NCBI RefSeq assembly: GCF_000814685.1
Contig: NZ_JXAC01000124.1
Coordinates: 1 to 33,716 of the forward strand
From: Sphingobacterium sp. T2
GTDB lineage: Bacteria > Bacteroidota > Bacteroidia > Sphingobacteriales > Sphingobacteriaceae
DNA length: 33,716 nt
Reading direction: 5' to 3'
The position numbers and the translations under genes were made by a program. Under the pieces are notes generated by a model. The model was given only the letters and a program-made list of their open reading frames with translations, did no database searches and was not told the DNA's origin. The first letter of the stretch is position 1; each line of letters opens with the position of its first letter. Below, piece after piece: positions 1 through 14,673 of this stretch.

Positions 1-241
1 ATAATGTATTGGACTGCTACCTGTTTGACACCCTTGATGAGGTAAGGGAAGTTACCTGGCAATGGATGGATGATTATAACAATCACAGACCGCACGACAG
101 TCTTGGCAATATGCCTCCAACCGAATATGCCGCTTTATCCGCTTTTGAAGGCGATAGACAGGCGTGTTAGGGTATTTAGGTTTAGGTTAATTTGAAGAGA
201 ATTTTGTAAAATTACGCAGTCTTAATTCGGGGAAGTCGACA
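1..241 (+). mobile_element. Right end of an IS3-type insertion sequence
   Basis: The transposase fragment is followed by about 70 non-coding bases. IS3 elements usually end in CA-3' shortly after the transposase stop. The sequence around 222-241 (TTAATTCGGGGAAGTCGACA) has the G/C-rich block and terminal CA expected of such an end. The left end and any target duplication are not in the window, so the exact boundary is a guess. A second candidate end is the G/C-rich block near 246-272. Confidence 0.45.
3..170 (+). CDS. IS3-family transposase (OrfB), C-terminal fragment
   Basis: The reading frame is open from the window edge to a TAG at 168-170 and encodes 55 residues. It contains the typical end of an IS3-family integrase-type transposase: a W-x-x-x-Y-N-x-x-R-P-H-x-x-L-G-x-x-P-P-x-E-Y pattern. 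In this family that motif lies just after the last catalytic Glu of the DDE domain and marks the C-terminus. The 5' part lies outside the window, so it cannot be told whether the element is intact. It is the left neighbour of an AT-rich segment and is a sign of mobile DNA there. Confidence 0.85.
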
Positions 242-742
242 AATGTGTGCGCCAAGTTTGACCCCTCCTCCACTTCCTTTTGATGCGTGAAAAACTGCGT
301 ATCCCATATTTAAGTTTTTTAAAATTGTTTGATTATTTCTCGGATATGTTTTCGAGAGATAAACAAACAATGTCCCTTCTTTTGCCGTTCAAGTTTACGA
401 ATGGCAAACATCAAAAATGCGTTAAATCGCTTGCGGTTAGTAGCGTTTTTGGCAAAGTCCGAACAGGACTTTGAAGCCCTCTGCAAGAGCCCACTTTACA
501 GAGCATAGCGAATGTAAAGTCTAATGGGCGAAACCTTATTGAAACAAAGGTTCTAACAAGAGACAAAAAACAACCGACAAAGGTTGTTGATTTCAAGTAA
601 AGTTTTTAACTTTATTTTAAACAAACAAATTCCTTATTCTAAGCTATCTTAATAGTGAAGATTAGGGCATTTTTTATAAAAAAATATAATTTTCTTTAAT
701 TATTAATATTTTTTACACATTCAATTATAAACAATTAATTAC
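171..742. other. Gene-poor region between IS end and lipoprotein gene
   Basis: No convincing protein gene was found in these 570 bases. The stretch holds the putative IS end, a CTCG...CGAG hairpin near 340-355, the hairpin array at 381-618, and then a very AT-rich segment (about 619-742) that probably contains the promoter of the lipoprotein gene. A 35-codon frame beginning ATG at 401 is too short and too overlapped by hairpins to call. Confidence 0.5.
381..618. ncRNA. Array of consecutive hairpins, possible structured RNA or repeat element
   Basis: Seven inverted repeats follow each other with little space between: 381-390/399-408 (TTTGCCGTTC against GAATGGCAAA, one G-T pair), 413-420/443-450, 453-460/466-473 (CAAAGTCC/GGACTTTG), 489-500/513-529 with a bulge, 532-537/547-552, 569-575/582-588 (AACAACC/GGTTGTT), and 598-604/608-614 followed by TTTT. 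The last looks like a terminator. Short open frames on both strands carry no recognisable domain. I do not recognise an RNA family. It could be a structured ncRNA, a recombination-site repeat, or part of the adjacent mobile element. Strand is unknown, although the terminal T-run favours plus. Confidence 0.35.
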
Positions 743-1591
743 ATGATTATGAGAAAATCAAGTATTATTATTAAATTTTTGTTTTATTTCTTTTTATTTC
801 ATTTGGATTTTCTTTATTTAATTCTTGTGAAAGAAGTGATAAGGATACTATAGAATTGGATAAAAATAATGAATTAGATATATCTGTAAAAAAAGGAAAG
901 GTAGATGTAAAAGTTTTTTCGAATTTACTCTTAGCGATGAATCCTTCGTTAAAAAACCCTATTATAGATGAAGTTCAATTTTTATCAGATGGTGATTTTA
1001 AAATAACTTATTTTGATAACGATATTAAAAAGTCATTTTTAGTTCAGAATAATAAAGAAGGTGTTGTACAACTTACTTGTGGGGGTTCTTGTGGGGGGAG
1101 AGGCATGCGATGAAATGAGGACAACAAAAACGAGTGAGGGCTGGATTACTCAATGTGAAGGATGTCAAAATTGTAGTTTAATTATTACTGAAATAGATCA
1201 GCCTAATGCTAAAAATATTATTTCAACTATTACAAATAATACTTCTTCCTTAAAGAATATTGCAAAATTAAGCTACAAAAACACACTTAAAGGAAAAATT
1301 GCATCTAGTGAATTGAATAGAAATTTAAATTTAATAGAGGTTTCTTCTATTAAATTTAGTCATTTAGAAGATGGTAATATTTTTGCTTTAGTTGAATATA
1401 GTGATTCGTTTGATAATACTTCTACATATGCTTTATTAGATGATGGTAAAACTGTTACAACAATTGATTGTACTGGTTCTTGTGATTGTAAAGAACAATA
1501 TATTCATTCAACAAAAACAACTCAATGTTCTTGTGACCAATGTAAAATGACAATTACTGTTGAAGAAGTTAATGAAAATCCCAATCCATAA
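743..1591 (+). CDS. Cysteine-rich lipoprotein with a duplicated domain (two frameshifts)
   Basis: No family is recognised. Read with two single-base corrections, this is one protein of about 282 residues. Adding a T in the T-run 776-780 joins ATG 743 to a classic lipoprotein signal with lipobox N-S-C at 820-828. Removing a G from the six-G run 1093-1098 joins the middle to the C-terminal part. The mature protein has two similar halves, each ending in a six-cysteine block: first C-G-G-S-C, then Q-C-E-G-C-Q-N-C; second D-C-T-G-S-C-D-C, then Q-C-S-C-D-Q-C. Both blocks include a Thr-Lys-Thr and end in a short I-T-rich strand. It is very AT-rich compared with the downstream genes and lies near an IS end, suggesting recent acquisition. 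It is likely anchored in a membrane, with cysteines forming disulfides or binding metal; that role is inference. Confidence 0.6.
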
Positions 1592-1616
1592 TATTAAATA
1601 TATAAAACAGGAACAT

Positions 1617-1662
1617 ATAAATAGCCATTGAATTCGGAATTCAATGGCTATTTATGTTTATT
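1617..1662 (+). terminator. Strong hairpin terminator after the lipoprotein gene
   Basis: Near-perfect inverted repeat: AAATAGCCATTGAATTC is followed after one base by its complement, ending around 1655. A T-rich stretch follows. It sits 25 bases after the stop codon of the cysteine-rich lipoprotein. Confidence 0.75.
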
Positions 1663-1886
1663 TCTTTTTTCGTGCTAGATTTATAAAAGGTCTTTCGAAG
1701 ATAAATGCATTTCCTCATTCAACTGTTATGGACTATCATGCATGCTCTACGACAACCTCACCTCATTGAACCTGCGCGTAACATTTTTTCTCCACAATAG
1801 GCATAAAAAAGTTGATTTAGCACTATTTTTATAGTAGATTTAAAATGTTTTGTTCACCTTTAAAACCAAACTACTGAAAAAAGGAT

Positions 1887-2481
1887 ATGCTTAAAGCTTC
1901 ATTAACTTCCATTTTATTATTTTTTTGTTTCAACAGTTTTGCGCAACTTACTTTGCAGCAAAAATTACAGACCGATATCCCGTTAAATACTCAATTCCAA
2001 TTACTTTTGTCACAATCACGAAGTCAAGATGCTGATTTCAAGATCATAAGGAAGTCTAACATTGAAATCATCCAGCGCAATGTCAATGACTCCATAGCTC
2101 GTTATACGAAGGAGATTACCGCGCTGAAGAAAAATTCTTCTTCCTCCTCCCAGCAGGTTGAAATCCTGCAGGACTCGGTGAAAGCCTTAAGCCAAAGCCT
2201 TGCCGAAGAGCAAAAGAAAACCGACAGCATATCTTTTTTAGGAAATAATTTTAGCAAATCGGCTTACCATACTATGGTGTGGAGCATCATCATTGTTTTG
2301 GCTATCCTTTCGTTTGCCCTGCTGACCGTATACCGAAAAGCTAAAGTGGATGCTGTGGAGCATCAAAAGACCGTGGATGAACTACAAAACGAATTCCAAA
2401 GCTTATAAGAAAAAAGCTATGGAAACCGAACAAAAACTAAAACGACAACTGTTAGACGAACAGCTTAAAAGAGATTCCTAA
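1887..2481 (+). CDS. Secreted/membrane coiled-coil protein of unknown function (one frameshift)
   Basis: The protein is about 197 residues. It starts with a signal peptide (hydrophobic to about residue 19, ending S-F-A-Q). A largely helical, coiled-coil-prone region runs from about residue 60 to 115, including a run of six serines. One transmembrane segment lies near residues 130-150 (W-S-I-I-I-V-L-A-I-L) and is followed by a charged cytoplasmic helix. As given, the frame stops at 2408. Removing one T from the pair at 2403-2404 extends the charged tail by about 24 residues (Y-K-K-K-A-M-E-T-E-Q...) to a TAA at 2479-2481, directly before a terminator. Similar small Bacteroidota proteins are, I believe, often labelled tRNA (guanine-N1)-methyltransferase in databases, but nothing here resembles a methyltransferase. 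It stands alone between two terminators. Confidence 0.7.
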
Positions 2482-2519
2482 TCTTTCTAGCTTTTGTCCC
2501 TGACAATATTAAAATTTAG

Positions 2520-2556
2520 AACGGCGAAGGAAATGTATTCCTCCGCCGTTTCTTAT
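2520..2556 (+). terminator. Hairpin terminator
   Basis: AACGGCGAAGGAA (2520-2532) pairs with TTCCTCCGCCGTT (2538-2550) with a single G-T pair and a five-base loop, and a T-rich stretch follows. It lies between the convergent coiled-coil gene and the aldose epimerase gene and probably serves the former. Confidence 0.75.
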
Positions 2557-2581
2557 TGACCTAAATAAAGATAAATCAATA

Positions 2582-3725
2582 TTATTTTACTGCAAATCTA
2601 TATTCTGTCTTTGAGGCATATTTTTCGCCGGGCTTCAAGACGGTGGATGCAAAATTAGGATGATTGGGTGCATCAGGAAAATGTTGAGTTTCCAGACACA
2701 AGGCTGAACGGTATGGGTAAGTCTGTCCCTTTTTACCTTTAGGATCATTTTCCGACATGAAATTACCACTATAAAACTGCAATCCCGGTTCGGTAGTTAA
2801 AATGGTCATTTCTATTCCGGTCCGTGGTGCATAAAGTTTGGCCACCTCCGCAAAATTTTCCTTTTTGTTGAGTTCAAAGTTATGGTCATATCCTTTGCCA
2901 AAAGCAATCTGAGGATGGTCCTGACCTATGTCCTTGCCTATTTCCTTACTAACACGGAAATCAAAAGGTGTATTCGTCACATCTATCCCTTTTCCTGTCG
3001 GGATAAGTTCTGCATCCACTTCGGTTATTTTATCGGCATCTATCCACAGATGGTGATCCAAGATGGTGGAATCCCCTGTTCCATTGAGGTTGAAATAATG
3101 CATGGTTTGTCAAATTCAACACGGTTTCCTTATCTGTTTCTGCATCGTAGGTTATCTCTAAACCTCCCTTATCATTCAAGGAGTAGGTTACCTTCATCAA
3201 CACATTCCCTGGATATCCGGCTTCTCCATCCGGAGAATAGTAAGAGAAAGTAATGGACGTAGAGGAAGCTTGATCTACTTTCCATACCTTATTATATACT
3301 CCATTGAAGCCGCCATGCAGAGTATTATTGTTGTCGTTCTTCTCCAAATTATAGGTTGTGTTGTTCAACACGAAGGAGGCCTTACCTATACGGTTGCCAT
3401 ACCTACCGACAATGGCGCCGTAGAAATTTCGGCTGTTCTGGATAAATTCTTCCGCCGTATCATATCCCAGCACCACATCCACGAAAGAGTCTTGCTTATC
3501 CTTCACTACTAAAGACACAATCCTAGCTCCGAAATTAGTAAGCTGAACTTTCATGTTGTCATTTACAATTTCATAAAGGGCAACCCTTTGACTGTCCAAT
3601 TGTGTTGAGAAATGCAACGAATCTACCCCAACTGTCGCAATGGATGTTGTCGTGTCTTCTTTCTTGGCTTGGTGGCATGCGGTGGCAAGGGATACTGCCA
3701 GCACCCAAATAATTTTTTTCATCAT
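2582..3725 (-). CDS. galM: Aldose 1-epimerase (mutarotase), lipoprotein form (one frameshift)
   Basis: Interconverts the alpha and beta anomers of sugars such as glucose and galactose. The corrected protein is about 380 residues, the usual GalM length plus a signal. It begins with a lipoprotein signal (M-M-K-K-I-I-W..., lipobox A-T-A-C at residue 17), so it is probably exported and lipid-anchored, acting on sugars outside the cytoplasm. Family motifs are present: N-T-L-H-G-G with the first active-site His, N-L-T-N-H-A-Y-F-N-L with the second, and a C-terminal L-E-T-Q-H-F-P-D-A-P-N-H-P block with the general-base Glu. The sequence as given breaks at 3094-3098: removing one base there (GCATTATTTC to GCATATTTC on the coding strand) restores N-H-A-Y-F-N-L exactly. 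It is monocistronic, between a terminator at 3829-3855 and the convergent gene upstream of 2582. Confidence 0.9.
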
Positions 3726-3828
3726 AACTTAAGTTTATTTTCTTAGTTTTTTCATTCAGATTAATAAATTTACTAATATCATTATAATCCACCTAATTTT
3801 ATATATCTCAATCACTCATGAAGAATAA

Positions 3829-3855
3829 AAAAGGATAGCCTATAGCTATCCTTTT
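3829..3855 (-). terminator. Hairpin terminator after the M14 peptidase operon
   Basis: AAAAGGATAGC (3829-3839) pairs perfectly with GCTATCCTTTT (3845-3855) around a five-base loop. It lies 11 bases downstream (minus sense) of the peptidase stop and is followed on the minus strand by an A/T-rich run. Confidence 0.75.
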
Positions 3856-3866
3856 ACTGATGTTAA

Positions 3867-5625
3867 TTATAATTTACGTTCGAGATAACCACCTTTTTCG
3901 CTATCTACTACAATCTTAGCATTTTTGGGATTTCCTTTTACTATCCATTTGACCCGCACTTCGGACATGCCGTCAATGGTAGGAATTTCAATCTGATACG
4001 GTTTATATTTTTGCTCGACAGTAACATTGAAATCTTTATCCAGAATACGCATTCCTGTGATGACTTCGGCACCTTCCAAGCGGATATAATCCGGTCGGTT
4101 TACCGCATATTTTACATCATGATCAGAATGGGTAGGAATGATTCTGCTATTCCACACGGTAGCTACTACTTCTGTAAGACCATCGCCTAGACTTTTCGTC
4201 GACACATCCACAAACTCCAACTTTGGGGTGTGGTAAGCATGAAAGATTGTGAAAGCCGCATTACGATGGGCATCCTCCAACAGAAGGAATCCCGGATGGT
4301 TTCGGGTATAATTTTTCTTCGCGCCTCCGATTTCTATTTTTCCGAACTGTGGATGGTCAAATTCTTTCCAAGGTACATAAGCATCGCCAAACAGCAACAG
4401 TTTGTCAAACTCATAGTATTCATCATTACGTCCAAAACCACTCGAAGGAGATTTCTCATTGAATAGTTTGTAGGTAGTCATGAGCTCGTTTGAGAAGGTA
4501 TATATACCTCTTGTAAGGGCGAAGAAGTCAATCTCACCGCCGAAAACGGTATACAGATCTTTATGTATTACAATATAATTATATCCCGGAAGCATACGTT
4601 CTCCGGTTTTGCCTAAGGCGTCATATACCTGTACGTCTTTTCTTGAATAGTATTTGTCGTCTTGGGCAGCTCCCGGTCCTCTAAGAATCATGCCACCATA
4701 ATTGTGATAAGATTGCGCGCCTGCAATATTTCTGTGTTTATAGAAAAACTCTTTTACTGCTTGCGTTTCCGGCAAAGTTCCAGGGTAATACAAGGCTCCA
4801 TTTTGCACATAGGTAGGCTGCCAATTCCATCCCCAGTCGCGGTTAGGATCGTATACTCCGGTCTGGTCTTCATTTACCAGCCGTCGCCATCGTTGTCGAT
4901 CCCTTCATACCCCAACAGCTCGTATTCACCAACCTCTCCCGGCTTGGCGAGCACCATACGGTTAGGATTGTCTGGATCCACCTTGTAACGACCAGTCTTG
5001 GACTTTCGACGCATCATACTATATGTCCATCACCGTCCAAGTCATCGAACATATCTTCAGCAACCTGTCCATCCCCGTCATTATCAAATGGCCTTCTTCC
5101 CGAACGTGAGGAGTGCATGGTATTCGGCTCGTATATAAAGTAATCACGCGAGTCCGGATTGATGGTTGGCGCGATATAGAAAATCTTGTCTTTCAGTAAA
5201 TCTTGAATAAACTGCACCTGATGGAAGTTTTCTACAAGATACCATGCTGTATACATGGCAATCTCGGATCCTTGCAGCTCATTGGCGTGGATATTGCCAT
5301 CGATCCACATCGCGGGCTTGCGGTCTGCATTTCCAGAGTTAAAATCCGTGATGGAAAGCACCCAAATATCGCGGCCTTCATAGGACTTACCTATGGATTC
5401 ATACTTCACTAGGTTAGGATAAGCTTTCTGTAAATCCTTGCAGAATTGCTCTATCTGCTTAGTATCGTGGTAGCGGTTCCAGTTCATCTGCACCTTAGGG
5501 TTGGCAGGAGAACCTATTGCCCGCAATCCCGGGATATCGATTTCTTCACCTTTTTTCTGTGCAAAAGCAGTCGAAAAAGAAAGGGAAGTCAAAAGAGCAG
5601 CACACAAAATATTTTTGAGTTTCAT
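3867..5625 (-). CDS. Secreted M14-family zinc carboxypeptidase, active form (two frameshifts)
   Basis: Hydrolyses C-terminal residues of peptides in the periplasm or outside the cell. With two single-base corrections the protein is about 586 residues. A signal peptide (residues 1-22, cut after A-F-A) is followed by the M14 fold: zinc ligands in N-I-H-A-N-E (H113, E116), N-P-D-S-R, the third ligand in S-Y-H-N-Y-G-G, and the catalytic Glu in F-S-N-E-L. Several D-x-D-G-D-G stretches in the middle resemble calcium-binding loops. One base is missing around 5014-5019 (after G-D-G-H-I-V) and one G is missing at 4877-4878. Adding them gives a continuous frame through D-N-D-G-D-G-W-V-N-E-D. I chose ATG 5625; a GTG at 5634 is in frame but leaves less signal-like residues. 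It starts 18 bases after the stop of the upstream paralogue, so the two form an operon. Confidence 0.85.
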
Positions 5626-5643
5626 AAATGTCACTTTATAATT

Positions 5644-7230
5644 TTACATCCATTTTAATTTCACCTGCGCTAGGGCAACCGGCAGTGATGGATACGGTAC
5701 CTTGCCTTTTATGAGCCACGAGAAAGATAGAGATTGGCCCGCCCCCAAAGAGGAATATAGCTGCAGTCTTTTTCCATTGAGGAATTGTTGGTTTTTCTGA
5801 AGCTCACAGACAGTCTTAAACTTAGGTATAAACTTTATCTTGTCCGCTATCTCGGGGTAGCTGGCTGTCTTACCTACGTTGGTCACGGTAAGCTCTACAC
5901 GATACACATCTCCTCCTAGGGGTGTCACCACGGGCTGCTCGTATACCAGCTGCGGCATGGCATCTATCAGCTTAGAGACAAAGTTTGCATGTAATTTTGC
6001 CGGTTCAGACAAAAACTGAACGGGAGGATTGTTTTTAAAGATTTCTACTACGCCACCCACTTCCACTTCTTGATTCGGGAAGTTAGGATGCTGTACTTTG
6101 GTCCATGGAAGGATAGCTCCAGCGACATTATTTTTGCTTACCCAATGATAGAACACATCTTCCGGTTTCACCTTCTTCGAAGAATCTTGGGCTACAGGCC
6201 ACCACAAAGGGGTTGCAAAGCTAAATTTCCCTAAATGATAATAGGCCGTATTGACAAAATTTCCCGGTTTATGCTCCATTCTAGGTGCTTCTCCTAATCC
6301 TTTGACAGCCTCCTTATAAAGAGTACTCACGTACTTGGACACCTCAGCATCGCTTTCGCTCCAAGAGCTGATGATTCTTTCTCTAGCCTTTGCTGGATTA
6401 TATTTTTCAGGTTCCGAAAGGTTGTTGGTCAATCCGAAATGTACTATTCCCCAAATCTGCGGGTTAGCGAAGATGAAATCCACCAGAGCCCTTGTTTCAG
6501 GTTCTGAAGCAGCATACTCTCCACTTTCGGATACAAATGCAGGATAGTCGAAGGTAAAGTTTTTGTCTATATTTACTCCCCCTTCCCCATCTTCGCCATA
6601 TTTACCGTCAAAGTCGGCATCTATACCTTCGGTGAGCAATAGGTATTCTCCCTTTTCGCCTTTGCTTCTGTCGGCTTGCACCAGTATATCCTTAAAGGTA
6701 GGGTGTACTCTATAGGTTCCGCCGGCTCTTTTGACACGCATCTGAGCTATGACTCCATCACCATTAAGATCTTTGGCAGGATCTTCGTCGACACGTCCGT
6801 CTCTGTCATTATCAACAACTCTCGCATTCCCGGACAGCCAGTGACCTGTTTTAGAGTTTCTTTTATAAGCATCAGGATTTACCAGAGGAATAATCCATAC
6901 CGAACGACCTGACAACAAGCGGTTCAACGAATCAGGAGCCAAAGAAGTCAAGCGGTCTACCACCTCTAGACTGCCCACCACTCCTGCAGGATGCTTGCCA
7001 TCAATACCTGCCACCACTAATAAGGTAGGTTTAGCCTTCTTGTCCTGTTCTATTTTGATGACAGGAATGTTTTCACCCCCAAAGCTTTTACCCACAGATT
7101 CTACAGCCACGTTTTTCTTTCCTTTCAGCTGGTTGATTCTGTTAAGCAAAGCATCATAGGACGGATAATTAAACTGGGCAAAGCTCCAGTAGGGAGCCAT
7201 AGCGCAAAAAATCAAAAAAAACTTCCTCAT
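5644..7230 (-). CDS. Secreted M14 carboxypeptidase-like protein, predicted inactive
   Basis: 528 residues with a signal peptide (M-R-K-F-F-L-I-F..., cut after S-F-A). It shares with the downstream peptidase the M14 fold, N-P-D-A motif, the D-x-D-G-D-G-type loops and overall length. The zinc motif H-x-x-E is replaced: here the His is H80 and the fourth position is Gly83 (K-H-P-A-G). The third-ligand His is kept in I-V-H-F-G, but the region that should hold the catalytic Glu reads F-S-F-A-T-P-L-W-W without Glu. It is probably a pseudopeptidase, perhaps binding substrate or partnering the active enzyme encoded 18 bases downstream. The frame is intact without correction. Family membership is sure; inactivity is inferred from residues and would be weakened if another Glu supplies the site. 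Confidence 0.85.
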   Translation of the reverse strand: MRKFFLIFCAMAPYWSFAQFNYPSYDALLNRINQLKGKKNVAVESVGKSFGGENIPVIKIEQDKKAKPTLLVVAGIDGKHPAGVVGSLEVVDRLTSLAPDSLNRLLSGRSVWIIPLVNPDAYKRNSKTGHWLSGNARVVDNDRDGRVDEDPAKDLNGDGVIAQMRVKRAGGTYRVHPTFKDILVQADRSKGEKGEYLLLTEGIDADFDGKYGEDGEGGVNIDKNFTFDYPAFVSESGEYAASEPETRALVDFIFANPQIWGIVHFGLTNNLSEPEKYNPAKARERIISSWSESDAEVSKYVSTLYKEAVKGLGEAPRMEHKPGNFVNTAYYHLGKFSFATPLWWPVAQDSSKKVKPEDVFYHWVSKNNVAGAILPWTKVQHPNFPNQEVEVGGVVEIFKNNPPVQFLSEPAKLHANFVSKLIDAMPQLVYEQPVVTPLGGDVYRVELTVTNVGKTASYPEIADKIKFIPKFKTVCELQKNQQFLNGKRLQLYSSLGAGQSLSFSWLIKGKVPYPSLPVALAQVKLKWM

Positions 7231-7382
7231 TTTAAATTGAAATGAAAGTATAATTGGTTGTTATGTTTTTCTTGTATAAAGATAAATATATGTTCAAATC
7301 AAGGAAGTAACATATATAATACAATTCAAAAGAAGGGCTTTGGAACGAAATAAGACAAAAATAAAATTATTCTTATAATCGT

Positions 7383-7414
7383 TTTGGTTTTCAATCAGAT
7401 ATACATTATTTTTG
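7383..7414 (+). promoter_or_regulatory. Bacteroidota-type promoter of atpDC
   Basis: TTTG at 7383-7386 is followed after 20 bases by TATTTTTG at 7407-7414, an exact match to the phylum's -33 TTTG / -7 TAnnTTTG pattern. The predicted start of transcription is about 7420, leaving a 5' leader of about 60 bases before the atpD start codon. Confidence 0.75.
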
Positions 7415-7457
7415 CAGTCCGAAAAGTAAGCTATAGAAGTAGCTTATAATAAATTGA

Positions 7458-8987
<1,530 letters not shown>

Positions 8988-8993
8988 TTATAG

Positions 8994-9061
8994 GTATTGA
9001 GTACTGAGTATAGGGTAATGAGATTTTCTCTACTCCGTACTCAATACTCCATACTCAATAC
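8994..9061 (+). repeat. Short palindromic repeat unit between atpD and atpC
   Basis: The 84-base spacer is filled by copies of one 11-mer in both orientations. GTATTGAGTAC (8994-9004) is exactly complementary to GTACTCAATAC (9037-9047), and ATACTCAATAC (9051-9061) is a direct repeat of it. TACTGAGTAT (9002-9011) adds a degenerate copy. The transcript could fold into alternative hairpins between the two cistrons. It resembles small dispersed intergenic repeats of the REP type. Confidence 0.7.
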
Positions 9062-9071
9062 TATATATAGC

Positions 9072-9320
9072 ATGAAATTACAAGTAATAACTCCAGACAA
9101 ATTAGCATACGAAGGCGAGGTAACAGCCGTGACTGTCCCTGGCTCTGCAGGATCTTTTCAGATTTTGAAAGATCACGCTGCTATTGTCTCTACCTTAGAA
9201 GACGGAAAAGTCATTATCAAAAGCGGTAATGGCGAAGAGGTCATTAACATTAAAGGTGGTGTGGTTGAAGTTAAGGACAACAATATCATCGTTTTGGCCG
9301 AAGGAATAGTACAAGGATAA
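9072..9320 (+). CDS. atpC: F1Fo ATP synthase subunit epsilon, short form
   Basis: 82 residues starting M-K-L-Q-V-I-T-P-D. It carries the N-terminal beta-sandwich of epsilon (P-G-S-A-G-S-F-Q-I-L, D-H-A-A-I-V-S-T-L, G-G-V-V-E-V) that binds gamma and the c ring. The protein ends where the C-terminal two-helix domain would begin; many other epsilon subunits are about 130-140 residues. I chose ATG 9072: an in-frame TTG at 8997 would translate the repeat spacer and add a non-homologous 25-residue tail. It is cotranscribed with atpD and ends just before a strong terminator. Confidence 0.93.
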   Translation: MKLQVITPDKLAYEGEVTAVTVPGSAGSFQILKDHAAIVSTLEDGKVIIKSGNGEEVINIKGGVVEVKDNNIIVLAEGIVQG

Positions 9321-9340
9321 TAACATTAAAAACATGATAG

Positions 9341-9382
9341 AATAGCCCTTAAAACTTCAGGTTTTAAGGGCTATTTTTTTTA
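9341..9382 (+). terminator. Strong intrinsic terminator of atpDC
   Basis: AATAGCCCTTAAAAC (9341-9355) pairs perfectly with GTTTTAAGGGCTATT (9361-9375) around a five-base loop and is followed by an uninterrupted T run. It lies 20 bases after the atpC stop and separates it from the ilv-leu operon. Confidence 0.9.
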
Positions 9383-9689
9383 CAACTTTTTCACCGTATA
9401 AGTCCATTTTGCGAAGATTTTTGCAGAAATTTTCATTTTTCTCCAAAAAACCAAAAATAAACCAATTTTAATTTTAGTTTAGTCTTGAAAAAATATAATT
9501 TTATCATCACTAGAAAAACAAACAATAAATAGCTAATTACAACAAAATCAACCAAATAAAAAACTTTTTTAAAATACTCTTTTTGTCTATTGTATAGAAT
9601 TTTTTTTCATCTTAACTTGAGCTAGCATCTAATTCGGAGATTGTACACATGCTTTGGGGAGAGACTTGTACAGATTAAATTTTAAGGTT
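9383..9689 (+). other. Leader/promoter region of the ilv-leu operon
   Basis: About 300 very AT-rich bases without a gene. No exact TAnnTTTG element was found; the nearest is TAATTTTA around 9496-9503, without a good -33 partner. There is no run of Ile, Leu or Val codons that would suggest a leader-peptide attenuator, and no T-box-like pattern. Two TGTACA palindromes flank a G-rich block near 9640-9675, just before the ilvE start. The operon promoter must be here but I cannot place it. Confidence 0.4.
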
Positions 9690-10580
9690 ATGCAATACTA
9701 TAATCAGAACACAAAAATCTTTCTAAACGGCGAATTTGTCCACGCAAAATCGGCCGGCATAGATTTGTTCGGACAGTCGTTGCATTATGGCTATGGTGCA
9801 TTCGAAGGATTACGCGCTTACAACACCCATAATGGAACTCGAATCTTCAAAGCTGAAGAACACTTCGAACGATTAAAAAAATCCTGTGAGTCTATCGGTC
9901 TACCCTATCGTTGGAACAATCGATATCTCATCGAACAGTGTTATGAGCTTTTGGAGCTGAACAACCTACGCGCAGCTTATATAAGACCGCTTGTGTTTTC
10001 TGGTTCAAATATGCATTTGACCTCTTCGGAAGATGCAAATATCATGTTGGCTGCTTGGGAGTGGGGACCTTACTTGGGTCAAAACTTGTTGCGTGTCAAC
10101 ATTTCTTCTTACGAAAGACCCAATCCAAAATCTTTCCATATCGACGCAAAGATCTCAGGACAATATATCAACTCTATTCTGGCGAGTACTGAGGCTATAC
10201 GTAAAGGATTCGACGAGGCACTTCTCTTGGATCAGGACGGCTATGTAGCACAAGCGTCAAGTGAAAATTTATTTATTGAAAAAGACTATAAAATCTACAC
10301 ACCGCCATTAGAGAATGTTTTCCCGGGCATTACACGTCAAACAGTCATCGATATCTGTAAGGAATTAGGCATCGATATCATCGAAAAGAAACTTACAGTA
10401 CAAGATGTATACACTGCAGATAATGCTTTTCTCTGTGGTACCGCCGCCGAAATTATAGGCATCAAACAGGTAGACGATATAGTATATAAAGAAGAATGGG
10501 AATATAGTATCGGAGCTACTATTCAGATAAAATATAAAAACTTAGTATTAGAGCAAGAGAATTATGAAGTCATCATCTGA
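9690..10580 (+). CDS. ilvE: Branched-chain amino acid aminotransferase
   Basis: Last step of Ile, Val and Leu synthesis: transfers an amino group from glutamate to the branched 2-oxo acids, with PLP. 296 residues, fold type IV. The PLP lysine is K154 in D-A-K-I-S-G-Q-Y. Phosphate-binding and substrate segments follow: A-S-S-E-N-L-F, F-P-G-I-T-R and G-T-A-A-E-I. The N-terminal [12 protein letters not shown] motif is typical of IlvE. The start is ATG 9690; an upstream TTG at 9654 adds residues not seen in the family. It is the first gene of the operon, and its end overlaps the ilvD start by 17 bases, suggesting translational coupling. Confidence 0.95.
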
Positions 10581-12264
10581 TAACGCAACAGGATTAAACA
10601 AATACAGCCGAATATTTACGCAAGATGAAACGCAACCTGCTGCCAAAGCGATGTTGTATGGTATCGGTCTTACCGACGCCGACATGCACAAAGCACAAGT
10701 AGGTATTGCCAGCATGGGATACGATGGAAACACCTGTAACATGCACCTAAACGATTTGGCCCAAGTGGTCAAGAAAGGTGTGTGGGCAAACGACTTGGTA
10801 GGACTTACCTTCGGTACTATCGGTGTGAGCGATGGCATGAGTAATGGAACGGATGGTATGCGCTACTCTTTGGTATCTCGCGATGTTATCGCCGATAGTA
10901 TAGAAACCATCTGCGGCGGTCAATATTATGATGCTGTAGTTGCAATCCCTGGATGTGACAAAAACATGCCTGGCGCTATCATGGCTATGGCCCGATTGAA
11001 TCGTCCTTCCATTATGGTGTACGGAGGTACCATCGCTCCCGGACATTATAAAGGACAGGAGCTGAACATCGTTTCGGCATTTGAAGCGCTAGGGCAAAGA
11101 CTTTGCGGCAACCTTTCGGATGAGGATTACGAAGGTATTATCAAACACACCTGTCCCGGACCTGGAGCCTGTGGCGGTATGTATACGGCAAACACCATGG
11201 CCTCCGCCATCGAAGCTTTAGGGATGAGCTTACCTTACTCCTCCTCAAATCCTGCCGTATCAAAAGAAAAAGAAAAAGAGTGTCTTGAAGTAGGAAAATA
11301 TATCCGCCTTCTATTAGAAAAAGACATTAAGCCTTCAGATATCATGACGCGCAAGGCTTTCGAAAATGCCATGCGTCTGATTATCGTTTTAGGAGGTAGT
11401 ACCAATGCAGTATTGCATTTCATCGCTATAGGCAAGGCTGCCGGCGTAGACATCACACAGGATGACTTCCAACGCATGTCGGATCAGACTCCCGTACTGG
11501 CAGACTTCAAACCTTCCGGCAAATATCTGATGCAAGACCTACATCAATATGGCGGTACCCCTGCCGTGATGCGATACCTGCTAGATGAAGGTTTATTGCA
11601 TGGAGACTGTTTGACTGTAACAGGAAAAACCGTTGCCGAAAACCTAGCCAACGTAAAGTCTATCATGGAGTATGACCAACCGATCATAAAGCCATTGGAC
11701 AAGCCTATCAAGCCTACAGGTCACCTTCAGATATTATACGGTAACCTTGCTGAAAAAGGCTCTGTAGCCAAAATATCGGGCAAAGAAGGGGAACGCTTTG
11801 AAGGACCAGCGCGCGTATTCGACGGCGAACATGACTTCGTGGAAGGCGTTACCTCCGGACGTATCAAAAAAGGCGACGTGGTCGTTATCAAAAACGAGGG
11901 ACCGGTTGGAGCTCCCGGCATGCCGGAAATGTTGAAGCCAACCTCCTTAATCATCGGAGCAGGTCTAGGCAATTCCGTAGCTCTTATTACCGATGGGCGC
12001 TTCTCGGGAGGAACGCACGGCTTCGTAGTAGGACATATCACTCCGGAAGCCTATAAAGGAGGGCTTATCGGTCTGGTAGAAGACGACGATATCATCGAAA
12101 TTGACGCGGTGAATAATACCATTACTCTGAAAGTCGATGAAAATGTCATCGCCCAACGTCGCGCCAAATGGCAACAACCTGCTCTCAAAGTGACAAAAGG
12201 CGTGCTTTACAAATACGCCAAAACCGTATCAGATGCATCGGAAGGCTGCGTTACAGACCTTTAA
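10564..12264 (+). CDS. ilvD: Dihydroxy-acid dehydratase
   Basis: Dehydrates 2,3-dihydroxyisovalerate and 2,3-dihydroxy-3-methylvalerate to the 2-oxo acids, using an iron-sulfur cluster and Mg. 566 residues, the usual length. The cluster cysteines are C58 (N-T-C-N-M-H), C131 (P-G-C-D-K-N-M-P-G) and C203 ([11 protein letters not shown]). The C-terminal G-R-F-S-G-G-T-H-G motif is intact. The start ATG lies inside the end of ilvE in another frame. The gap to ilvB is 72 bases. No frameshift is seen. Confidence 0.97.
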
Positions 12265-12336
12265 TAAATAAGACACTAAAAAAGAAGAGGTAAGAAACCA
12301 GCTTGTTGAGTTTTACTTTTAACAAAATACTACAAA

Positions 12337-14080
12337 ATGAATACACTGGAGAAAACAGAAACAAAGCAATCACAAACTATTGCAGCCAACACACAGATTT
12401 CAGGCTCGCAAGCGGTATTGGAAGCTTTGATTCATGAAGGAGTAGATACCGTATTTGGTTATCCAGGTGGCGCTATCATGCCTATCTACGACGCATTGTA
12501 TGACTACAACGACAAGATCAAACATATTCTGGTCCGCCACGAACAAGGTGGAATACATGCAGCTCAAGGGTATGCACGTACTTCTGGACGTGTAGGTGTG
12601 GCTTTTGCTACTTCAGGACCGGGTGCCACCAATTTGGTGACAGGTTTAGCAGATGCCATGATCGACAGCAACCCTATAGTGTGCATCACAGGACAGGTGT
12701 TTGCTTCCCTGCTAGGTACGGATGCGTTCCAAGAAACGGACGTAGTCAACATCACAAGCCCTATTACCAAATGGAATTATCAGGTAACGGATGCTACAGA
12801 AATACCAGCTGTATTAGCAAAGGCTTTTTATATTGCCCGTACAGGCCGTCCGGGTCCCGTATTGATTGACATTACCAAAAACGCACAATTACAGTTATTC
12901 GACTACAAAGGTTATACGCCTTGTGATCACATCCGCAGTTATCGACCTAAACCTATTGTGCGTAAAGAATATATAGAAGCTGCGGCAGATGTTATAAACG
13001 CCGCAGAACGCCCTTTCGTATTGTTCGGTCAAGGGGTAATCTTAGGGAAAGCCGAACAGGAATTTAAAGAATTCATCGAAAAAGGAGGCTTCCCTGCTGC
13101 TGCTACAGTCATGGGTTTAGGCGCTTTGCCAACAGACCACCCACAGCATGTGGGGATGTTGGGAATGCATGGCAACTATGCTCCTAACGTTCTGACCAAC
13201 AAATGTGATGTGTTGATCGCTGTGGGTATGCGCTTCGACGACCGCGTCACAGGACGTCTGGATAAATACGCCAAACAGGCGAAGGTTATTCACCTAGACA
13301 TAGACCCAGCAGAAATCGACAAAAACGTAAAAACTAACCGTTCCGGTATGGGGAGACTGTAAAGAAACTCTCCCTATGTTGACCGAACTTATCAAGAAAG
13401 GCAACTACGACAAATGGTTACAAGAGTTCAGAACTCTGGAGCAAGAAGAAGTTAAAGAGGTTATACACGATGAGCTTCACCCTAAAGGAGACATTATGAC
13501 CATGGGAGAGGTAGTACGTGTGCTGAACGAACTTACTGGAGGCGATGCCGTCATAGTAACAGACGTAGGCCAGCATCAGATGGTAACTTGCCGCTACGCC
13601 AAGTTCAACCAATCTAAATCCAACGTCACTTCCGGTGGATTGGGTACCATGGGCTTCGGTCTTCCAGCAGCAATAGGTGCTTGGTACGGCACACCTCATC
13701 GTGATGTCATCGCCATCATCGGAGATGGAGGCTTCCAGATGACCATCCAAGAATTAGGAACCATCATGCAGTTTGGCGCCAAAGTGAAAATATTAATCCT
13801 GAACAACCAGTTCTTGGGTATGGTACGTCAATGGCAACAGCTGTTCCACGACAAACGTTACTCCTTTGTGAACATAACCAGCCCGGACTTCGTCACCGTG
13901 GCCAAAGGGTATGGCATCCAAGGGCAAAAGATTTCAGAACGCAAAGACCTTAAAGAGGCCTTGCAAACTATGTTGAACCACGACGGAGCATACCTCCTAG
14001 AAGTAATGGTGGGAAAAGAAAACAACGTATTCCCGATGGTTGCACAAGGTACTTCTGTATCAGAAATTAGATTGAAATAA
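12337..14080 (+). CDS. ilvB: Acetolactate synthase, large (catalytic) subunit (one frameshift)
   Basis: Condenses two pyruvates to acetolactate, or pyruvate and 2-oxobutyrate to acetohydroxybutyrate; first common step of Val/Leu and Ile synthesis. About 580 residues once corrected. The N-terminal ThDP domain has the catalytic Glu69 (V-R-H-E-Q-G-G). The middle domain has M-R-F-D-D-R-V-T-G-R. The C-terminal domain has the ThDP/Mg motif G-D-G-G-F ending N-N about 28 residues later. As given, the frame is broken at the A-run 13329-13333. Removing one A restores V-K-L-T-V-P-V-W-G-D-C-K-E-T-L across the junction. It ends one base before the start of ilvN, which encodes its regulatory partner. Confidence 0.95.
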
Positions 14081-14081
14081 A

Positions 14082-14673
14082 ATGGAAAAGCAAGAATTTA
14101 CCATTACGATATACACAGAAAACGCCGTAGGGATGATCGGCCGTATTTCTAATATCTTCTCACGTCGCAAGATCAATATAGAAAGTCTGAACACCTCTCC
14201 TTCAGAGGTTGAAGGCATACACCGCTTCACGATCTTGATTACCGAGTCGGAAGATGTAGTACGTAAACTCTGTCGTCAGATACGAAAAACAGGTGGAAGT
14301 GCTTAAAGCATATTTCAATACCAATGACGAACTGATATGGCAGGAACAGGCTTTGTATAAGGTTCCTACCCAAGTGGTAAACGAAAAAGTGTATGTAGAA
14401 CGTCTATTGCGCCAATACGGTGCCAATGTGGTGGTAATCCGTCCGGACTATATCGTTTTCGAAACAGCCGGTCACCGCGAAGAAATCGACAAACTAACTC
14501 AAGAGCTCACAAAATACGGCTTGATAGAGTTCGTACGCGGAGCACGTATCGCCATCATCAAGGCTAGCGCCGGCTTCCACGAAAAACTAAAACAGTTTGA
14601 AAAAGAAGAACCGGCACCGGAAATAGTGGAAAACGAATACTTGGATCAACAGGACAAAGTGTTTACGATGTAA
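14082..14673 (+). CDS. ilvN: Acetolactate synthase, small (regulatory) subunit (one frameshift)
   Basis: Binds IlvB, activates it and usually confers feedback inhibition by valine. About 196 residues when corrected. The N-terminal ACT domain reads T-I-Y-T-E-N-A-V-G-M-I-G-R-I and includes the family's R-x-K-I-N-I-E-S-L. A second domain follows, with Y-K-V-P-T early and R-G-A-R-I-A-I-I-K later. The frame is broken at the A-run 14285-14289: removing one A gives Q-I-R-K-Q-V-E-V-L-K-A-Y-F, a normal link between the ACT domain and the C-terminal domain. The stop is six bases before the preferred ATG of the DinB-like gene. The C-terminal tail after about residue 178 is acidic and not conserved. Confidence 0.94.

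Follow-up and report, generated by a model that had tools for sequence, protein, structure and literature searches.

The gene at positions 743–1591 of a 33,716-nucleotide stretch of Sphingobacterium sp. T2 DNA (the window, located on contig C29 of a 3.04-Mb assembly in 326 contigs) encodes a lipoprotein. It belongs to a small and so far undescribed family, whose membrane-anchored members are found in Bacteroidota and in one phage. The existence of the family is well supported. Its members follow a modular rule, with one unit or two and six cysteines in each unit, and the family is absent from the curated libraries that were searched. Sequence comparison with the relatives settles the window lipoprotein as a real gene, and a gene lying in three pieces in a noisy assembly is recognizable as such through these relatives, whose intact representatives are at hand for bench work.

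The window gene consists of three pieces that alternate between two reading frames. The first piece (within 743–847) contains the start of the signal peptide. The second piece (802–1113) carries the lipid cysteine, the first strand-rich part and cysteines 1 and 2 of block 1, and the third piece (1061–1591) carries the remainder of block 1 and the whole of unit 2. In the joined plus-strand translations, an N-terminal signal peptide with a frame switch inside it (743–825, assigned by eye) precedes the lipid-accepting cysteine (826–828), which closes the lipobox LFNSC and is followed by ERSDKD. Unit 1 is composed of a helix-and-strand part (829–1077), delineated by translation, family alignment and weak model matches, and six-cysteine block 1 (1078–1174), in which two cysteines are read in one frame and four in another with a frame switch between 1092 and 1106. 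Unit 2 is composed of a helix-and-strand part (1205–1468), delineated by the family alignment and a held-out model, and six-cysteine block 2 (1469–1543; gaps of 3, 1, 12, 1 and 2 residues), the best-conserved stretch of the family. The last strand (MTITVEE), which corresponds to a strand in the unit model of a relative, is followed by a tail and the stop codon (1544–1591). A sequence-only reading of this DNA had placed a gene for an exported lipoprotein with 12 block cysteines at the same coordinates; the coordinates are right, the lipobox was upheld on inspection by eye, and the cysteine count is supported by the relatives.

Profile searches matched unit 2 of the window strongly and unit 1 weakly. 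A model built without any window row matched the unit-2 piece with an E-value of 2.6e-20 among 588 open reading frames (ORFs) of the window. The strand-rich part of window unit 1 did not by itself reach significance (E 0.14) with a model lacking window rows, with which an unrelated frame scored 0.96, and was matched weakly but in the expected place (E 0.0098) by a unit-1-only model of five relatives. A small pairwise comparison, uncorrected for composition, also matched window unit 2 to the first unit of five relatives (E 5e-8 to 2e-5).

Ten homologous loci were obtained, comprising nine intact two-block lipoproteins (214–283 residues) and one single-unit protein (147 residues). Eight of the two-block relatives are in Bacteroidota genomes, and one is on a phage contig. 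A pattern scan of a species-genome collection gave four intact homologues, namely L003 from a Chryseobacterium gleum metagenome-assembled genome (MAG), L004 from a Bacteroidetes MAG, L005 from Parapedobacter luteus and L006 from a Prolixibacteraceae MAG. Six scans of IMG/VR gave the single phage contig L014, and genome searches added L011, the single-unit L012 and, from the order of the Prolixibacteraceae MAG, L051–L053. Duplicates were left out of the counts (L008 and L020 of L005, L015 of L014, L016 of L011, L024 of L012, L045 and L046 of L003, and L047 of L006). A model from which the single-unit protein had been excluded still recovered it at E 1.8e-8 among the ORFs of the loci then gathered.

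The cysteines are conserved in number and vary in spacing. Exactly 12 cysteines follow the lipid cysteine in all nine two-block relatives and six in the single-unit relative, and the mature intact relatives contain no cysteines beyond the blocks and the lipid cysteine. Across the 19 units of the ten relatives, gap 1 is 3 residues in 18 units and 4 in one, gap 2 is 1 in nine units and otherwise 4, 5 or 6, and gap 3 ranges from 10 to 19, with 12 being the commonest (13 units). Gap 4 is 1 in all 19 units; block 1 of the window deviates, with two residues at this position (C-x2-C-x2-C). Gap 5 is 2 in 15 units and 3 or 4 in the others. A methionine lies two residues past the sixth cysteine in 15 units and is replaced by leucine or isoleucine in four. 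Thr-Lys-Thr, to which the sequence-only reading had drawn attention, occurs in each block of the window protein, and the relatives do not conserve it. In five of the nine two-block relatives (L003, L011, L051, L052 and L053), the first unit is short and retains the block with little or none of the helix-and-strand part. Immediately upstream of the gene in L011, on the minus strand (L011/L043), lies another small cysteine-rich frame that has CxCxxC followed by a strand and may be a single block in degenerate form.

The two halves of the lipoprotein are related, and profile comparison establishes the internal repeat that had been proposed from the window alone as real. The halves of six relatives were aligned by hhalign with a probability of 97.6 and an E-value of 3.6e-12 over 76 columns. 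The raw score of 72.0 compares with a best of 31.9 in 200 shuffles that kept the cysteine columns and a best of 17.5 in 200 free shuffles. When the cysteines were masked, the halves scored 31.3 versus a shuffle best of 14.3. The part upstream of the block alone (four rows for unit 1) scored 23.2 versus 16.4, at a probability of just 21.2. None of the 200 column shuffles in any of these four controls was as good as the real halves. Furthermore, a unit-2 model of five relatives matched unit 1 in all nine two-block relatives, two of them weakly (independent E-values of 0.024 and 0.12, 10 sequences searched).

Each unit is predicted to fold into a helix on an antiparallel sheet, in a cystatin-like arrangement, to which a cysteine hairpin and a final strand are added. 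The AlphaFold model of full-length L014 (six rows) has a mean predicted local distance difference test (pLDDT) value of 71.6 and a predicted template modelling (pTM) score of 0.68 and shows a helix followed by strands in both units. The model of L014 unit 2 alone (12 unit rows; pLDDT 82.0, pTM 0.74) contains a helix at residues 9–21 and strands at residues 29–37, 42–50, 53–63, 72–80, 86–89, 94–97 and 102–109. In the models, a unit has a single helix and some seven strands. In the VIA comparison, from whose lists a family can be missing without thereby being excluded, the full model was headed by a multicystatin (Z 6.2, root-mean-square deviation 3.3, 80 aligned residues), aligned to unit 1 alone, with a designed protein in the second row. 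The top seven rows for unit 2 are affimers and an adhiron, which are engineered cystatins (best Z 6.0, root-mean-square deviation 2.6, 74 aligned residues). These best unit-2 rows hardly cover the cysteine hairpin (model residues 4–83 of 114). With Foldseek, the top hit of the full model was a phytocystatin (E 0.04). Cystatins have a helix packed against an antiparallel sheet of four or five strands; with a best Z of 6.0–6.2, under 8, the resemblance of the units to them is weak and may reflect a common arrangement only.

As the sequence-only reading had supposed, no known family was found. Pfam-A and NCBIfam, searched with window pieces and all ten relatives, gave nothing at the curated cut-off. 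No clear full-length match was obtained in PHROGs for a window piece and four of the relatives, where the best match spanned 14 residues (E 0.0032), or in PADLOC for three relatives, where a single weak match spanned 42 residues (E 0.00094). Pfam candidates below the cut-off were rejected: Lipid_bd (E 0.065–0.1), DM (0.011 and 6.6), 2CompARG (0.047), Med6 (0.11), Pox_E10 (0.26), Ada_Zn_binding (0.37), LPAM_1 (6.8) and Imm50 (1.2). A sequence search of the PDB with alignment A4 returned two N-terminal matches (E 0.095 and 1). The literature listed on cysteine-rich lipoproteins of Bacteroidetes defence islands, on phage-exclusion lipoproteins and Flavobacterium, on the peptide CTGSCDC and on lipoproteins and Parapedobacter luteus contained nothing about the family. 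Judged by these searches, the family is unnamed in the curated libraries.

The gene is rare and patchy in Bacteroidota. In partly overlapping genome samples, strong matches, own genome included, were found in 2 of 301 genomes of the family, 2 of 300 of the order and 2 of 395 of the class; the phylum sample gave strong matches in 2 of 395, plus the single-unit protein at E 7.3e-5. In the family of the Chryseobacterium MAG, the MAG itself was the one match among 189 genomes, and in the order of the Prolixibacteraceae MAG, four of 149 genomes matched, the MAG included. A search of 198 genomes with L012 recovered L012 itself and no other match, and positions 1–2560 of the window had no match among plasmids. 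Among the same-genus genomes sampled in the family and order sets, the window's own aside, there was at most one chance-level N-terminal match (G083, E 9.9e-4). Weak matches in eight genomes (G029, G043, G083, G097, G186, G599, G770 and G885; E 1.2e-4 to 9.9e-4) were dropped because seven start at that end of the profile where the signal peptide lies and extend no further than profile position 111, and the stretch in G043 contains five stops. No six-cysteine block was present in the ORFs read for G029, G083, G186 and G599 or in a pattern scan of all eight weak loci.

The frame changes of the window gene are probably not real, given the sequence of its surroundings and the intact copies in relatives. 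Several conserved genes between positions 1887 and 5634 each extend over two or three frames, which points to numerous one-base errors in the assembly. The conserved neighbour gene at 1887–2478 is split over two frames relative to all 11 relatives compared, and the gene at 3870–5193 is split over three frames relative to both relatives that covered it. The overlapping same-strand ORFs at 2582–3103 and 3030–3725 likewise suggest frame breaks. Because conserved neighbours are broken in the same way, assembly indels are likelier than decay, and the presumption that the two indels are errors gains support from the assembly itself. Programmed frameshifting was rejected, since the conserved neighbours are broken too. 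A dead gene, whose two frame changes would be genuine and which would yield no protein, is improbable. Such decay would account for two frame changes within one gene, and it has a precedent in an 87-base scrap on contig C212 (12742–12828, minus strand; about 1501–1587 of locus L002). The scrap is 90% identical to the last cysteine block with one cysteine codon altered, lies between lipoamide-dehydrogenase-like and thioesterase-like genes (named by eye) and is, by sequence, a remnant of a second copy of the window gene. Against decay of the window copy, its pieces together retain the lipid cysteine and every one of the 12 block cysteines, and its conserved neighbours are broken alike.

A lipobox-like cysteine is present in the window protein and in all ten relatives, as read by eye without a signal-peptide predictor. 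The first ten residues after it include 1–4 acidic residues in the window protein and seven relatives, and acidic residues outnumber basic residues in six of these eight; the window protein has four acidic and two basic residues. The optimal export signal reported for Capnocytophaga is C-X-K-(D/E)2-X (PMC5080379), and the start of L012, C-K-K-E-D-P, matches it by eye. The family resembles the lipoprotein export signal (LES) lipoproteins of Bacteroidetes in its lipobox, in this mostly acidic start and in the L012 match, and differs from them in that the members other than L012 do not match the published motif exactly. The mostly acidic mature starts and the L012 match suggest that the lipoproteins are exposed on the cell surface.

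We infer that the family moves horizontally, as a mobile module, from its patchy presence, the scrap of a second copy on contig C212, the members on a phage contig and in a defence island, and the base composition and IS end of the window copy. The sequence-only reading had noted AT-rich DNA next to an insertion sequence (IS) end, and both features are present. The gene has a G+C content of 26.6%, compared with 42.4% for positions 1887–33716, and starts about 500 bases downstream of an IS end at 1–244 (plus strand), which comprises a piece coding for the transposase C-terminus and the right end of the element. The coding part is presumably IS3-like, as judged from a protein motif. Copies of the IS end that are 99–100% identical to window positions 1–241, 1–227 and 31–244 lie on contigs C232, C144 and C15, respectively. 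The roughly 440 bases between the IS end and the gene (300–742) are without a clear gene and are not repeated in the genome. Four of the ten homologous genes (L004, L006, L011 and L051) have a G+C content at least five points below that of their surroundings.

At each of the ten loci, a selection of neighbouring genes was tested, and no recurring partner gene was found among them. The L014 contig is that of a tailed phage, with terminase, portal, head protease and tape measure genes. Beside its lipoprotein gene, positions 2228–3781 (minus strand) encode a 517-residue phage protein without a Pfam match, parts of which resemble, on inspection by eye, a phage polymerase. The L003 gene is flanked by AbiU and ThsB within a defence island (3652–14412) of the Chryseobacterium gleum MAG, in a row with PDC-S15, which has an FRG domain, AbiEi/AbiEii and a type IIG restriction-modification enzyme. 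The L005 gene is about 700 bases past a tRNA-Asp gene, with SMP-30 among the neighbours tested. The neighbours tested at the other loci are an AAA_14 ATPase and a possible barrel (L004), a Crp regulator and an Fe-S ferredoxin-like protein (L006), MoaE (L011), AraC and a two-component pair (L012), esterase-like and PQQ-repeat proteins (L051), GH3 and a beta-helix protein with a NosD match (L052), and histidyl-tRNA synthetase and a lamin-tail protein (L053). A gene near L052 encodes a type IX secretion sorting domain that scores above the Pfam cut-off, and matches to such domains below it occur near L053 and L003; they were taken as background because such domains are common in these genomes.

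The leading reading of the function is that the anchored lipoprotein excludes phages or similar particles at the cell surface; it is a guess, offered tentatively. The lipid anchor would hold the protein in the outer membrane, facing outside, and three disulfides per block would staple the hairpin. Disulfide loops are favoured over metal knuckles because the cysteine spacing varies. The two units would form a rigid module for binding, independent of any fixed partner gene. The target, in the least certain step, would be an incoming phage or a similar attacking particle. The broader proposal of a new class of Bacteroidota surface-exclusion lipoprotein, in which a duplicated, disulfide-stapled, cystatin-like module moves among phages, defence islands and chromosomes and keeps incoming phages out at the outer membrane, is quite doubtful. 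If phage exclusion is true, it would add a surface-acting defence in Bacteroidota and would account for an unnamed gene in the AbiU–ThsB island.

A number of observations weigh against surface exclusion. Its disulfides, surface exposure and anti-phage action are all inferred. The link to phages and defence consists of two of the ten homologous loci and the IS near the window copy, and the other eight loci lie amid ordinary genes, as far as the neighbours tested indicate. Six of the ten relatives are not five or more G+C points below their surroundings. The six IMG/VR scans yielded one phage contig only, and tblastn found no match among PLSDB plasmids with L005 or among INPHARED phages with L014. 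The N-termini read other than that of L012, the window protein included, show no exact match by eye to published export signals. On the structural side, the cystatin Z of about 6 lies below the 7–8 that is typical in VIA of models lacking a clear relative, and the cystatin rows of the full model cover unit 1 only. Foldseek found no match in the PDB or BFVD at E ≤ 0.001, and for the unit it placed de novo designs at the top (E 0.42 and 0.8).

An orphan immunity lipoprotein, horizontally acquired and binding the toxins of rival bacteria directly, would suit a small, patchy, lipid-anchored two-unit protein with one occurrence in a defence island. No partner toxin was recognized among the neighbours tested, the AbiEii of the L003 island has its own AbiEi, and the Imm50 match stays at 9.6 bits versus a cut-off of 27.1 bits; this explanation is unlikely. 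Metal binding, a candidate of the sequence-only reading, becomes somewhat less likely given the variable cysteine spacing, and a lipoprotein that holds copper, zinc or cadmium on the thiolates of each six-cysteine block, whether at the cell surface or in the periplasm, is quite unlikely. Metal knuckles and metallothionein-like sites usually have fixed CxC or CxxC spacing, whereas here gap 2 (1, 4, 5 or 6) and gap 5 (2, 3 or 4) vary and gap 4 is always 1. The CxC and CxxC pairs, the six cysteines kept in 19 of 19 units and the methionine after the sixth cysteine speak for such a site, as do the NosD-matching neighbour of L052 and the ferredoxin-like neighbour of L006. The methionine, however, is the residue replaced by leucine or isoleucine in 4 of 19 units and sits in a predicted strand like a core residue, and histidines are few (0–3 per intact relative). 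Bacterial metallothioneins share the blocks rich in CxC and CxxC but differ from the family in its variable spacing, its export as a lipoprotein and the helix-and-sheet part ahead of the blocks.

A cystatin-type inhibitor that shields the cell surface from cysteine proteases is highly improbable. The predicted unit fold is nearer to cystatins than to the other chains heading both VIA lists, at a weak Z of 6. The QxVxG motif, which forms the first hairpin loop of papain-inhibiting cystatins, is present in none of the 12 sequences (ten relatives and two window pieces). The family has a predicted helix on an antiparallel sheet and tandem units in common with cystatin-fold proteins such as multicystatin, affimers, latexin and fetuin-B; it is set apart by a Z of about 6 only, the missing QxVxG and the additional cysteine hairpin after the sheet. 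Among known exclusion systems, a report on Ltp of phage TP-J34 describes a superinfection-exclusion lipoprotein with an anchor and a repeat domain that contacts the tape measure protein of the incoming phage (PMC3952083). Like Ltp, the family consists of scattered or phage-carried, putatively surface-exposed lipoproteins with an N-terminal lipid anchor (by eye) and a repeat domain. The Ltp repeats are helical, with a helix and a turn in the same report, whereas the family units are predicted to contain a helix and a sheet with six cysteines, and just one of the ten relatives is on a phage contig. Because the predicted units are sheet-rich, the family is not considered to be of the Ltp type.

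Directly 3' of the stop codon of the window gene, an inverted repeat with 32-nucleotide arms (1604–1668, plus strand; 81% complementary) runs into T-rich DNA. Two Rfam matches to this hairpin, both far under the gathering score, were rejected. Its terminator-like sequence suggests that the lipoprotein gene is transcribed as a single-gene transcript.
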